Source: Oscillospiraceae bacterium
GTDB taxonomy: Bacteria > Bacillota > Clostridia > Oscillospirales > Oscillospiraceae
Direction of reading: 5' to 3'
DNA length: 64,000 bases
Assembly (NCBI GenBank): GCA_017434755.1
Contig: JAFRER010000003.1
Location: forward strand, 124,001-188,000
Positions 40,894-44,697 of this stretch are shown piece after piece. Made by a program: the position numbers and the translations under genes. The notes under the pieces are model-generated. The model worked only from the letters and a program-made list of their open reading frames with translations. It was not told the origin of the DNA and did not search any database. The stretch's first letter is position 1, and each line of letters opens with the position of its first letter.

Positions 40894-42177
40894 ATGAGCT
40901 CCGGCTTTGTTGATAAAGCAAGGATCACGATAAAAAGCGGGAACGGCGGAAACGGCGCTGTTGCTTTTCATCGTGAAAAATATGTCGCTTCAGGCGGACC
41001 CGACGGAGGGGACGGCGGAAACGGCGGAGATGTTGTGTTTGTTCCGGATGATAGTTTGACAACTCTGCTTGATTTCCGGTACAAAAGGAAATATGTCGCC
41101 GAAAACGGCGAGGACGGACAGGGAAAAAGATGCTCCGGCAAAGACGGCAGATCCCTGTATATCAAAGTTCCGAGAGGAACTGTCATAAGAGACTATGAGT
41201 CGGGCAGCATCATGCATGATATGTCCGACGGCATCTGCTGGACTGCGGCGAAAGGAGGACGAGGCGGATGGGGGAATATCCATTTTGCCACGCCTGCAAG
41301 GCAGACTCCCAGATTTGCCAAACCGGGACTTCCCGGCGAGTCTTTTGATATCGTTCTTGAGCTGAAACTGCTAGCGGATGTCGGATTGATCGGGTTTCCG
41401 AACGTAGGAAAGTCCACGTTTCTGTCCGTAGTAAGTAAAGCGCATCCGAAGATCGCCAACTATCATTTCACAACGCTGTTCCCGAATCTGGGCGTCGTTT
41501 ATGTTAATGACGGGAACTCGTTCGTTCTTGCCGATATTCCCGGAATTATCGAAGGTGCTTCCTCCGGCGCTGGTCTTGGGACAGAGTTTCTGAGACATAT
41601 AGAGCGGTGCAGACTGTTTGTCCACATTATCGATGTTTCCGGTTCGGAAGGGAGAGATCCGCTGGATGATTACAGGAAGATCAACGATGAACTTAGAAAA
41701 CATGATGAGAAGCTCATGGACAGACCACAGATTGTTGTTGCGAATAAAGCTGATCTGATCTCGGAAGATGACACTGCGGTGGATCAACTCAGATCGGAAG
41801 CGGAAAAAGACGGTTATCCTTTTTTCCTCTGCAGCGCGGTCTCCCATTCAGGAATAAAGCCGGTCATCGATAAATGCTATGAGATGCTCTCCTGCATCCC
41901 CGTTCCCGGACCATATGAAGCTGATTATGTTCCGAAGCTTCCGACAGGCGGATCTGCTGAAGATCTTCAGATCACAGAGAATGACGGAGTCTGGATCATT
42001 GAAGGGGATTGGATCAGAAAGCTGATCGCAAGGATCAATTTCAGCGATTATGAAAGCCGTATGTATTTTGACAGACTCCTCCGGGAATCAGGGGTCTTTG
42101 CAAGACTTGAGAACATGGGCATACGTGACGAAGACACGGTCAGTATATATGATTTAACATTTGACTATAAAGAATAG
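40894..42177 (+). CDS. obgE: GTPase ObgE
   Basis: Essential GTPase for 50S assembly and stress control. 427 residues: Gly-rich Obg fold (about 1-158), G domain with GFPNVGKSTF, DIPGIIEGAS and NKADL, and a C-terminal OCT domain (about 345-427) typical of Bacillota. Strong GGAGGTG before the ATG. rplU-rpmA-obgE order is conserved. Confidence 0.97.
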   Translation: MSSGFVDKARITIKSGNGGNGAVAFHREKYVASGGPDGGDGGNGGDVVFVPDDSLTTLLDFRYKRKYVAENGEDGQGKRCSGKDGRSLYIKVPRGTVIRDYESGSIMHDMSDGICWTAAKGGRGGWGNIHFATPARQTPRFAKPGLPGESFDIVLELKLLADVGLIGFPNVGKSTFLSVVSKAHPKIANYHFTTLFPNLGVVYVNDGNSFVLADIPGIIEGASSGAGLGTEFLRHIERCRLFVHIIDVSGSEGRDPLDDYRKINDELRKHDEKLMDRPQIVVANKADLISEDDTAVDQLRSEAEKDGYPFFLCSAVSHSGIKPVIDKCYEMLSCIPVPGPYEADYVPKLPTGGSAEDLQITENDGVWIIEGDWIRKLIARINFSDYESRMYFDRLLRESGVFARLENMGIRDEDTVSIYDLTFDYKE

Positions 42178-42232
42178 AGAGATTATAGTTAATTCGTAAC
42201 ATCGGGATCCCGCTTTTAAGAGGAGCAGAGTG

Positions 42233-44161
42233 ATGGGAAAGCATGTCACAAAGAAGAACAGTTCAATTGGCAGGAAGATCAAAGAATCGGTCGCCATTAT
42301 CTCTGAATACGATAAACACAGGGAGATCACGCTGTCGGATTATATCAAGCTCGCTGCCGCTGCCGCGATTCTGATAATCGTAAGCTTTTTCAAAGTCAGC
42401 GGTATTGTTGAGCTCCTTGCTTATCTGATCCCGTTCTTTCTCGTTTCGTATGATGTTTTCTTTTCTGCGATCCGCAAGATCAATTCGGGCAGATTTCCTT
42501 CTGATGAAGCGCTTGTGTTAGGCTGCTCAATTTTGTGTTTTGCAATCGGAAGCTATACGGAAGCAGTCGCTGTCGTTATTGCCTATAAGATAAGCCTCAT
42601 CCTTGAAGATGCTATCGAAAAGAAGCTCAAACAGACGGACGGGCGATTAAATGTCGGCAATCCGGTTGAATGTATGATTCATACTCCGGAGGGTGGGATC
42701 CGATTTGATTCCGCCGATCTCAGGATCGATGATATTGTATCGGTCGGGAATGATGATCCGGTCCCACTCGATGGAATGATAGAAAGCGGAAGAGGAGCAT
42801 TTGAGTATACTGCCCTGACCGGCGAGGATTCTTCCGTTATCCTCAGACCGGACGATTACGTGGCTGAAGGATGCATAAACAGATCCGGAAACCCCGCTAC
42901 CATACGGATCACGGCGGAAGTGCAGGAATCCACGGGACATGTCTTGAGGGAACGCATCCGGTCTTCTTCAGAAGAAAGCTCTGATCTTGAAAGGCTTGTA
43001 TATAATGTGCTGAAGTATTTCAGCATATTCTCCGTACCTGCGGCAGTAATCATTGCGCTCATTCCCGGCATCATAACGGATATGTGGTTCGACTGGATCA
43101 GCAGAGCCGTGATCATACTGTTTATATCACAGATCAGGATCATTAAGAAGATCATCCTCTATCTTTTCAGATCCGGGATCATCCGTTCTGCTTTCAAGGG
43201 CATCTATATTATGAACAATAAGGTGCTGGAAAGGATAAGCCGATCAGAAACCTTCGTGTTTGAAAAATCCGGGGTGATCACGGAAGGCGAATATGTGATC
43301 AAAAATGTCTACCCCTCAGAGATAAGTGAGACAGAGCTGCTCCATATAGCCGCAAAAGCGGAGAGCCTTTCCGGGCATCCCCTTGCAAAAGCCTTGTTGA
43401 GAACAGTCGATAGCGGTGACCTGAAAAAGTATTCCATCGACCGGTTCGAAGAGTATCCCGGAAGAGGAGTAAGTGCCTTCATAAACGGGAAAAAAGTATA
43501 TGCCGGAAAGTATTCGTTTGTTTCCGCTTTCTGCGATGCGCACACTTATTCCGACAGTGCAGGAACAAATATCCATGTTTGTATAGACGGGAAGTATTCG
43601 GGTCTGATCACCTTCAGTGACCGTGTTAAGGAAGGCGCTTTCGATGCATTGGAAAAGCTTAGATCCGGTCGGACGGCAAAACTCGTTATGCTGACGGGCG
43701 ATTCTGCAGTCAGTTCAAGAAAAATGGCTGCGTCGCTGAACTTTGATATGATCAAGGCTGAAACAACACCGGAAGATAAAAAGAACTCGCTGGATTACCT
43801 TATTAAAAACAAAAACAAGGGAACGTGGGTGACCTTTGTCGGAAACAACAGGACCGAAGATGAGATCTATGAAAGCGCGGATGTGGCTGTCAGTTATGTT
43901 TCATTAAAGGACTTCCCGCTGATTAAGGATTCTGCAGACGTTCTGATCTTCAGCAGAAGCATCGGTAAAATAGCAGATACCGTTAAGCTGTCCGATGCAG
44001 TGATTGGCAGTGTTAAACTGTCGACCGTGCTTATCGCGTCGATCAAGGCGCTGGTGCTGCTGTTTGGCATTACGGGCTTATTGCCTGTTTTGGCGGCTGT
44101 CATTACCGACGCTGTTGTTAGCGTAATGGTCACTGTTTATATGCTGTATATCCGGAAATAA
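42233..44161 (+). CDS. P1B-type ATPase homologue lacking catalytic motifs
   Basis: 642 residues (ATG 42233, AGGAG 7 bases upstream; a GTG at 42230 is in frame). Overall layout is that of a metal-transporting P-type ATPase: membrane helices about 40-80, 94-125, 262-312 and 590-640, an actuator domain with intact TALTGED (196-198 TGE), an HP motif SGHPLAKAL (382-383), PGRGVSA, and VMLTGD (486-490). Three essential motifs are changed: the phosphorylation motif DKTGT reads EKSGV (344-348), the membrane CPC is replaced by ISQ (about 298-300), and GDGxNDxP reads GNNRTEDE (537-544). The frame is open, so this is a probable pseudoenzyme, not a decayed gene. Ends at a terminator; 55 bases after obgE. 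Confidence 0.85.
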   Translation: MGKHVTKKNSSIGRKIKESVAIISEYDKHREITLSDYIKLAAAAAILIIVSFFKVSGIVELLAYLIPFFLVSYDVFFSAIRKINSGRFPSDEALVLGCSILCFAIGSYTEAVAVVIAYKISLILEDAIEKKLKQTDGRLNVGNPVECMIHTPEGGIRFDSADLRIDDIVSVGNDDPVPLDGMIESGRGAFEYTALTGEDSSVILRPDDYVAEGCINRSGNPATIRITAEVQESTGHVLRERIRSSSEESSDLERLVYNVLKYFSIFSVPAAVIIALIPGIITDMWFDWISRAVIILFISQIRIIKKIILYLFRSGIIRSAFKGIYIMNNKVLERISRSETFVFEKSGVITEGEYVIKNVYPSEISETELLHIAAKAESLSGHPLAKALLRTVDSGDLKKYSIDRFEEYPGRGVSAFINGKKVYAGKYSFVSAFCDAHTYSDSAGTNIHVCIDGKYSGLITFSDRVKEGAFDALEKLRSGRTAKLVMLTGDSAVSSRKMAASLNFDMIKAETTPEDKKNSLDYLIKNKNKGTWVTFVGNNRTEDEIYESADVAVSYVSLKDFPLIKDSADVLIFSRSIGKIADTVKLSDAVIGSVKLSTVLIASIKALVLLFGITGLLPVLAAVITDAVVSVMVTVYMLYIRK

Positions 44162-44164
44162 AAA

Positions 44165-44197
44165 AACGAAAGCTGTAAGTAGCTTTCGTTATTTTAT
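44165..44197. terminator. Bidirectional terminator, pseudo-ATPase / membrane protein
   Basis: Perfect 10-bp stem (44165-44174 with 44181-44190, loop GTAAGT) flanked by A6 upstream and ATTTTATT downstream. Serves the plus-strand ATPase homologue and the convergent gene at 44206-44697. Confidence 0.8.
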
Positions 44198-44205
44198 TAT
44201 TCCGA

Positions 44206-44697
44206 TCAGTCTTTGAAGTCCGGGATGAATGAGTCCGAAATGTTCATTTCATGCAGGCGGACCTTCATCTGGCTTATTTTTTTATTATACATCGCCGTCC
44301 GCAGTTCATCATCCTGTACGAATCTGTAATAGGCGGAACAGAATGATTCAAACATGGCTCTGTTCCGGGGGTTAAGGCTTTTTATACTCGTTGCAAAGGA
44401 AATCAGGGCTCCTGCGAAGAATGCGATTATATAGTAATAATGTTTTCTGCAGAGAAAGATCACGACAGCTGCTATTACAATGCATACAGCTAATGAAGCG
44501 AATACGGAAACGCCTGTATACTTTCTGGCGTTCGGACTTATCAGGTCTTCGTTTACAGACCTCATCTTTTTGAGAGTCGGGTAGGCGGTCGTAAAGTTAT
44601 AGATGAATTGTCTGAAGAATAAATAGTACCAGAGCCATCCCACAAAAAGAATAAAAGCTCCGAGCATGATCTTTACTGGAAGAGACGAAGCAGCCAT
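44206..44697 (-). CDS. Hypothetical membrane protein (three helices)
   Basis: 163 residues, not recognised. Predicted helices at about 9-30 (MLGAFILFVGWLWYYLFF), 65-83 and 87-104; the C-terminal third is soluble, charged and helical, ending DSFIPDFKD. Monocistronic, with a good promoter and an RBS (GGAGG upstream of the start). It lies convergent to the ATPase homologue and divergent from asp23. Confidence 0.7.
   Translation of the reverse strand: MAASSLPVKIMLGAFILFVGWLWYYLFFRQFIYNFTTAYPTLKKMRSVNEDLISPNARKYTGVSVFASLAVCIVIAAVVIFLCRKHYYYIIAFFAGALISFATSIKSLNPRNRAMFESFCSAYYRFVQDDELRTAMYNKKISQMKVRLHEMNISDSFIPDFKD

Follow-up and report, generated by a model that had tools for sequence, protein, structure and literature searches.

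Recurrent loss of pump motifs in a genus-wide clade of P1B-ATPase homologues: a possible nucleotide-binding pseudo-pump with a HAD phosphatase gene as its usual neighbour

Results

The window, by which we mean the whole stretch of 64,000 nucleotides analysed here, carries on its plus strand a gene (42233..44161) whose product of 642 residues has the fold of a P1B-ATPase, as judged from its open reading frame, profile and PDB matches and an AlphaFold2 model. We refer to it as the pseudo-pump. Translation could start at a GTG at 42230 or at the ATG at 42233, from which residues are counted, and the frame ends at 44161. An earlier note on this DNA had described an open frame with a good ribosome binding site behind obg, and this description holds: GAGGAG at 42220..42225 (+) is the likely ribosome binding site, and obg (40894..42177, +) is the upstream neighbour. 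Just 5' of the gene lies a sigma-70-like match, TTGACT-17-TATAGT (42161..42189, +), a consensus match only, in a region where 11 such matches were found against 7.7 expected. Downstream, a terminator-like hairpin, again only a consensus match and present on both strands (44165..44190), lies in the gap before a convergent gene for a small membrane protein of 163 residues, dn163 (44206..44697, -). Members of the dn163 cluster occur in 27 of the 80 loci that were clustered, with a sub-threshold match to DUF1634.

From the helices of the model we assigned the predicted transmembrane (TM) helices MA, MB, M1 and M2 to residues 34-137 (42332..42643, +) and M5-M6 to residues 578-642 (43964..44158, +), and from the model the actuator (A) domain, in which TGE is present, to residues 138-250 (42644..42982, +). 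Alignment and model place M3-M4 at residues 251-321 (42983..43195, +), with QIR at the CPC position, and underlie our assignment of the nucleotide-binding (N) domain to residues 356-460 (43298..43612, +); the second part of the P domain was assigned with the alignment to residues 461-577 (43613..43963, +). In sequence and alignment alike, the codon GAA at 43262..43264 (+) encodes Glu344, which replaces the phosphorylated aspartate. The protein retains several features of an active pump, namely the overall fold and TGE 196-198, HP 382-383 and MLTGD 486-490, all at the positions where the earlier note had seen them. Equally accurate was its report of EKSGV at 344-348, with Glu for the phosphorylated Asp of DKTGT, and of GNNRTEDE at 537-544 for GDGxNDxP. 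The note was also right that CPC is lost and no CPC or SPC metal motif is left in M4, but not that ISQ at about 298-300 stands in its place: canonical S-C-P-C aligns to residues 299-302, which puts Q300-I301-R302 at CPC. The N domain retains E377, H382, P383, G410, G412 and G425, and the P domain TGD490 and K516, with GNNRTE instead of GDGxND; K605 and D626 are also present and align with two residues of zinc pumps, a Lys in M5 and an Asp in M6.

The P1B layout proposed for the protein was borne out by matches to TIGR01525, PF00122, PF00702 and the ZntA structure 4umv. Homology to P1B pumps is clear from TIGR01525 (E 2.4e-75), the NCBIfam family of heavy-metal ATPases, even if the 254.5 bits stay below its cut-off of 346.25. 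The cut-off of the general family TIGR01494 is passed (82.3 vs 62.3), as are those of PF00122 and PF00702; 4umv matches with an E-value of 3.5e-41, and the kdpB cut-off (NCBIfam TIGR01497) is not reached (52.6 bits vs 527.9). The AlphaFold2 model, built from an input of seven sequences, has a mean pLDDT of 83.2 and a pTM of 0.78; among PDB structures, the zinc pump 4umw ranks first by E-value, and the highest TM score is that of the copper pump 7r0g (0.83 and 0.81, rmsd 3.3), which we take to be in an E1-like state. The window genome encodes a second, canonical pump (L002) with CPC and DKTGT, which is 28% identical to the pseudo-pump.

Orthologous pseudo-pumps occur in 94 of 102 genomes of the genus. 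This number comprises 93 genomes, including the contig-end fragments of G011 and G196 and the split gene of G206, and G014, whose copy came from checking four of the nine genomes negative for the HAD gene described below. The other eight genomes are G185, G195 and six whose matches were inspected: those in G007, G009, G028 and G213 have canonical motifs and those in G183 and G046 group with canonical pumps in the tree. Diverged pseudo-pumps score below canonical pumps in the HMM survey, which undercounts them, and their HAD neighbour served to recognise them; the pseudo-pump of G207, absent from the survey, was picked up in the later locus analysis. The nearest relative, L062 (MAG RUG11848), likewise sits behind obg, and its product, 60% identical to the window protein, has EKAG, VSQ and GNSRTD, so the pseudo-pump is not a frame artefact. 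The earlier note had proposed to look for the same motif losses in close homologues, and L062 indeed has EKxG and is without CPC. L062 and L149 apparently lie on a single contig (length 9387), and L063 apparently belongs to the G005 contig (length 14209), so that the members of each pair are not independent. More distant orthologues in the genus are about 30% identical to the window protein.

In a FastTree phylogeny of 137 rows, the 80 pseudo-pump rows form one clade with a support of 100, beside 39 canonical pumps; its deepest branches are weakly resolved, and the genomes vary in completeness. The window protein and L149 share a stem whose length, 1.1 and 1.5 changes per column in two trees, puts it among the longest of the clade, and for this reason the role of the window protein may differ from that of other members. 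L132, L141, L227 and L228 (G169, G186), with Asn for Asp and no obg nearby, branch first in the clade.

Across the 80 rows, residue 344 is Asp in 29, Gly in 23, Glu in 11, Ser in 10, Asn in 5 and Thr and Cys in 1 each; the aspartate is gone in 51 orthologues, the tree requires no fewer than 6 switches between D and not-D, and 11 further diverged members beyond this site table have Asn, Ser or Gly in its place. CPC is lost in 79/80, the exception being L124, where Asp is also present; SPC occurs in 6/80, the full TGE in 4/80 and GDGxND in 20/80. No row combines D344 with TGE, and four combine it with GDGxND, against 39 canonical rows in which D344, the Glu of TGE, the first Cys and the Pro of CPC, and GDGxND are present without exception (39/39). 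Close relatives that carry every motif, which according to the earlier note would mark the window gene as an isolated decaying copy, are absent among the 80 genus rows; intact relatives do occur, in a sister genus. What is retained is the head: K345, G347, E377, G412, G425, D490 and K516 are found in 80/80, P383 in 79, G410 in 77 and H382 in 73. K605 is kept in 53/80 orthologues and D626 in 29/80. In nine genomes (G010, G052, G015, G041, G192, G189, G191, G198 and G211) the A domain is missing, with 29-31 residues left of the 123-residue segment that bears it, and the N and P domains remain.

The 80-row site table excludes L170, L230-L243 and L292; L003 was left out of the nearest-relative motif table, L168-L170 of a further motif table, L202 of the matched-identity conservation test and L234, L239, L240 and L242 of the tree that contains L246. 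L170 (G011) and L243 (G196) are contig-end fragments, with the Asp position untabulated in the former and beyond the fragment in the latter. In L202 (G206), the pseudo-pump is in two frames, by a frameshift or an assembly error. Seven proteins from other genera of the family (L174, L175, L179, L180, L181, L183 and L186) are P1B-like with a degenerate CPC, DKTG or GDGxND; since they fall outside the main clade, pseudo-pumps may have had more than one origin.

Close pairs of orthologues are under purifying selection, and those without Asp resemble those with it. In a codon model on 19 close pairs (10 without Asp, 8 with Asp, 1 mixed), omega was 0.049-0.080 in nine of the Asp-less pairs and 0.242 in one, 0.055-0.136 in the Asp-bearing pairs and 0.100 in the mixed pair; omega = 1 was rejected in 19/19. 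The dN/dS well below 1 that the earlier note had named as a mark of a pseudoenzyme family is thereby found, with values of 0.05-0.14 in 18 of the 19 pairs and 0.24 in one. Canonical pairs had a usable dS in 3 of ten cases. For the window protein and L149, dS is saturated and yields no omega value, and omega = 1 is again rejected (LRT 348); the two proteins are 60% identical, compared with 63-86% for nine neighbouring genes. An isolated decaying pseudogene is rejected by the orthologues together with dN/dS. Two features expected of a pseudoenzyme family are found: catalytic residues are lost across the clade, and in close pairs purifying selection continues after the loss.

Constraint has also moved within the protein. 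At matched identity (143 pseudo-pump pairs vs 292 canonical pairs), conservation of the N domain is 0.66 in pseudo-pumps vs 0.43 in pumps and that of M1-M2 0.38 vs 0.72; the TM helices and the N-tail are the least conserved parts of pseudo-pumps. At eleven positions, pseudo-pumps are conserved to 85% or more with a residue that less than 30% of pumps share. Eight of these lie in the P domain between 466 and 522, where the window protein carries the consensus residue at 6/8, and they may form a new contact surface.

The most constant neighbour is a gene for a HAD hydrolase of about 190 residues, present in 93/102 genus genomes. In 89 of the 93 it follows the pseudo-pump on the same strand, about 0.6 kb or less downstream, and its frame often begins only a few bases from where the pseudo-pump ends; co-occurrence of adjacent genes is partly due to shared contigs. 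The neighbouring HAD scores 64.3 bits against PF12710 (cut-off 27) and 63.3 bits against TIGR01490, below the cut-off of 98.3. In four genomes, the window genome G000, G202, G169 and G186, the gene is present but unlinked; the G000 copy, with DFDKT, shares 39% identity with the reference HAD. In G169 and G186 it lies directly behind obg, away from the pseudo-pump. G014 has a pseudo-pump (L292, behind obg) yet no HAD match in its genome, which is 71% complete. Its pseudo-pump keeps E377 and H382, and K345, D490 and P383 have been substituted as well; these extra losses fit the loss of a client, in one genome of that completeness. In the wider family, HAD was found in 24 of 130 genomes, three of them from the genus. 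Of 18 strong HAD loci outside the genus, L246 (genus g102) adjoins a P1B pump and L247 a P-type ATPase of another class, and the other 16 have no P-type ATPase in the fetched flank, some flanks being cut by contig ends. HAD mostly without a pump in other genera weakens the idea of a partnership, as HAD generally needs no such partner.

Other neighbours vary more. The obg gene lies about 6 kb or less upstream of the pseudo-pump in 34/94 genomes (some flanks are shorter), a SASP gene upstream in 12/63 loci and a VanZ-like gene in 15/63; in eight loci of the genus an ArsR gene lies within 1.5 kb upstream. SpoIIIAA is found downstream in 39 of the 69 loci with enough flank. SpoIIIAE is present in 71/102 and SpoIVA in 64/102 genus genomes. 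The window genome has no match to either, nor do spoIIIA genes lie between its pseudo-pump and asp23, and for these reasons it is probably asporogenous. A reading of the pseudo-pump as a sporulation protein was rejected, as it also occurs in 24/31 SpoIIIAE-negative genomes, G014 included. All 29 genomes that keep the Asp are SpoIIIAE-positive, vs 39/62 of the others (Fisher p 4.6e-5), an association that does not hold once the tree is taken into account (sign test on 3 independent pairs, p 1).

In the sister genus g102 (6 genomes), the HAD-adjacent pump has CPC, DKTGT, TGE and GDGxND in 5, among which L269 begins at a contig end. The sixth, L276, is a degenerate P1B-like protein, also HAD-adjacent, with Asp retained. 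ArsR lies upstream of the HAD-adjacent pump in 3 genomes. The intact L246 branches sister to 43 pseudo-pumps, with an SH-aLRT of only 85.

Discussion

Loss of pump motifs in a single clade, purifying selection in close pairs, a shift of constraint to the N domain and linkage to HAD can be read directly from the sequences. The interpretation we favour, tentatively and at a little less than an even chance, is a non-transporting, nucleotide-binding membrane pseudo-P1B-ATPase that selection maintains throughout the genus, perhaps as a partner of the HAD phosphatase. Its parts deserve different degrees of trust. That the pseudo-pump transports no metal is very probable: as Asp, the TM metal ligands and GDGxND are lost, neither phosphoenzyme nor metal pumping would be expected, and where Asp, TGE or (in nine genomes) the A domain is missing, there should be no phosphoenzyme cycle and therefore no active transport. 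Some members might keep activity, since 29/80 retain Asp, four of these with GDGxND, and L124 has both CPC and Asp. Nucleotide is probably still bound, though we hold this less firmly, because the N-domain residues, the lysine of DKTG, TGD and the P-domain lysine are kept. A partnership with the HAD phosphatase is conceivable and rather less to be relied on than either. Selection for a non-transport role, as the earlier note had suggested, is supported by the clade-wide motif loss and the low omega.

Under the favoured interpretation, the membrane-anchored, nucleotide-bound N/P head would display the newly conserved P-domain surface and act as a switch or platform through which a soluble partner is recruited or controlled. 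For this part, the small HAD-type phosphatase, encoded nearby in most genus members and elsewhere in the window genome, would be the best candidate. In the most specific form of this idea, which we regard as somewhat unlikely, the head would be a membrane-tethered, nucleotide-responsive regulator of the phosphatase, and the P-type ATPase family would serve signalling instead of transport, in some lineages even after the actuator domain was given up. The simplest history would start from an operon of ArsR, pump and HAD genes in which, within the genus, the pump ceased to transport; in the light of g102, the intact metal-pump ancestor probably sat in such an operon.

The pseudo-pump could also be a stable non-catalytic protein, for instance a scaffold or a membrane sensor of nucleotide or metal, to which HAD is an inherited neighbour without a role. 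We consider this a plausible if not the expected outcome. It would account for the unlinked HAD gene in four genomes, the window genome among them, for the missing HAD in G014 and for the 16/18 HAD loci that stand without a pump in other genera, and a link to metal sensing could persist, given ArsR upstream of eight pseudo-pump loci. However, it leaves unexplained why HAD follows at no more than about 0.6 kb in 89 of the 93 genomes that have it, often with nearly abutting frames, and why the four unlinked genomes still retain it.

Improbable, in our view, is a relic in slow decay, in which the pump became dispensable and each motif loss is a step of erosion. The losses do differ by lineage and extend to the A domain in nine genomes, L202 is split in two frames, G014 lacks K345, D490 and P383, the window protein sits on a long stem, and the Asp is kept solely in SpoIIIAE-positive genomes (29/29, vs 39/62 of the others). 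Against this stand the omega of 0.05-0.08 in 9/10 Asp-less pairs, the long open frames, the N- and P-domain residues kept in 73-80 of 80 orthologues and the conserved positions that pumps do not have, while the SpoIIIAE link does not withstand the tree-aware test. Very unlikely, finally, is that the protein still transports at the expense of ATP through an altered chemistry, in which, for instance, Glu is phosphorylated and the TM ligands are different ones. TGE, TGD, K605 and D626 of the window protein and the Asp of 29/80 orthologues could be cited for it, but it is at odds with Gly, Ser, Asn, Thr or Cys at the Asp position in 40/80, with the loss of the A domain in nine genomes, the poorly conserved TM helices and the patchy retention of K605 and D626, and with the abolished phosphoenzyme formation when this Asp is replaced in studied pumps.

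P-type ATPases are defined as pumps by their phosphorylated Asp. A clade found in 94/102 genomes of one genus, with repeated loss of this Asp, strong purifying selection in close pairs and a preserved nucleotide-binding head, offers a test case for what such a head does without phosphoryl transfer, and because an intact HAD-adjacent pump survives in the sister genus, the conversion of a pump into a pseudo-pump can be traced. No description of such a pseudo-P1B family was found among the matches listed or in excerpts of the open-access PMC literature, a scope that leaves subscription journals mostly outside.

Closest to the pseudo-pumps are the Zn/Cd P1B-ATPases (ZntA/CadA; TIGR01512, TIGR01525; 4umv, 7qbz), to which their clade is sister and with which they have in common the fold, domain order, N-domain signature and TGD. 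They differ in that the window protein is without the phosphorylated Asp, CPC and GDGxND, and in that constraint has moved across the clade from the TM helices to the N domain. A comparable set of losses exists in the ATP7B mutant C983S/C985S/D1027A (7xun, 7xuk), in which C983 and C985 are presumably the CPC cysteines and D1027 the phosphorylated Asp; 7xun reaches a TM score of 0.80 to our model. That mutant was engineered for structure work, whereas the loss in the pseudo-pumps is natural and clade-wide. The linked HAD resembles the HAD-IB hydrolases (PF12710; TIGR01490) and differs from them by its linkage to the pseudo-pump and by missing the TIGR01490 cut-off.

As for the use of a P-type ATPase body in a signalling protein, the nearest likeness is offered by the apicomplexan guanylate cyclases TgATPaseP-GC and PfGC-alpha, which carry a P4-ATPase domain that keeps DKTG (PMC6592433, PMC7858053). 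For PfGC-alpha, parasites with a substituted Asp could not be selected, so that the residue appears to be needed (PMC7858053). These cyclases differ from the pseudo-pumps in being eukaryotic, fused, of the P4 type and in possession of DKTG.
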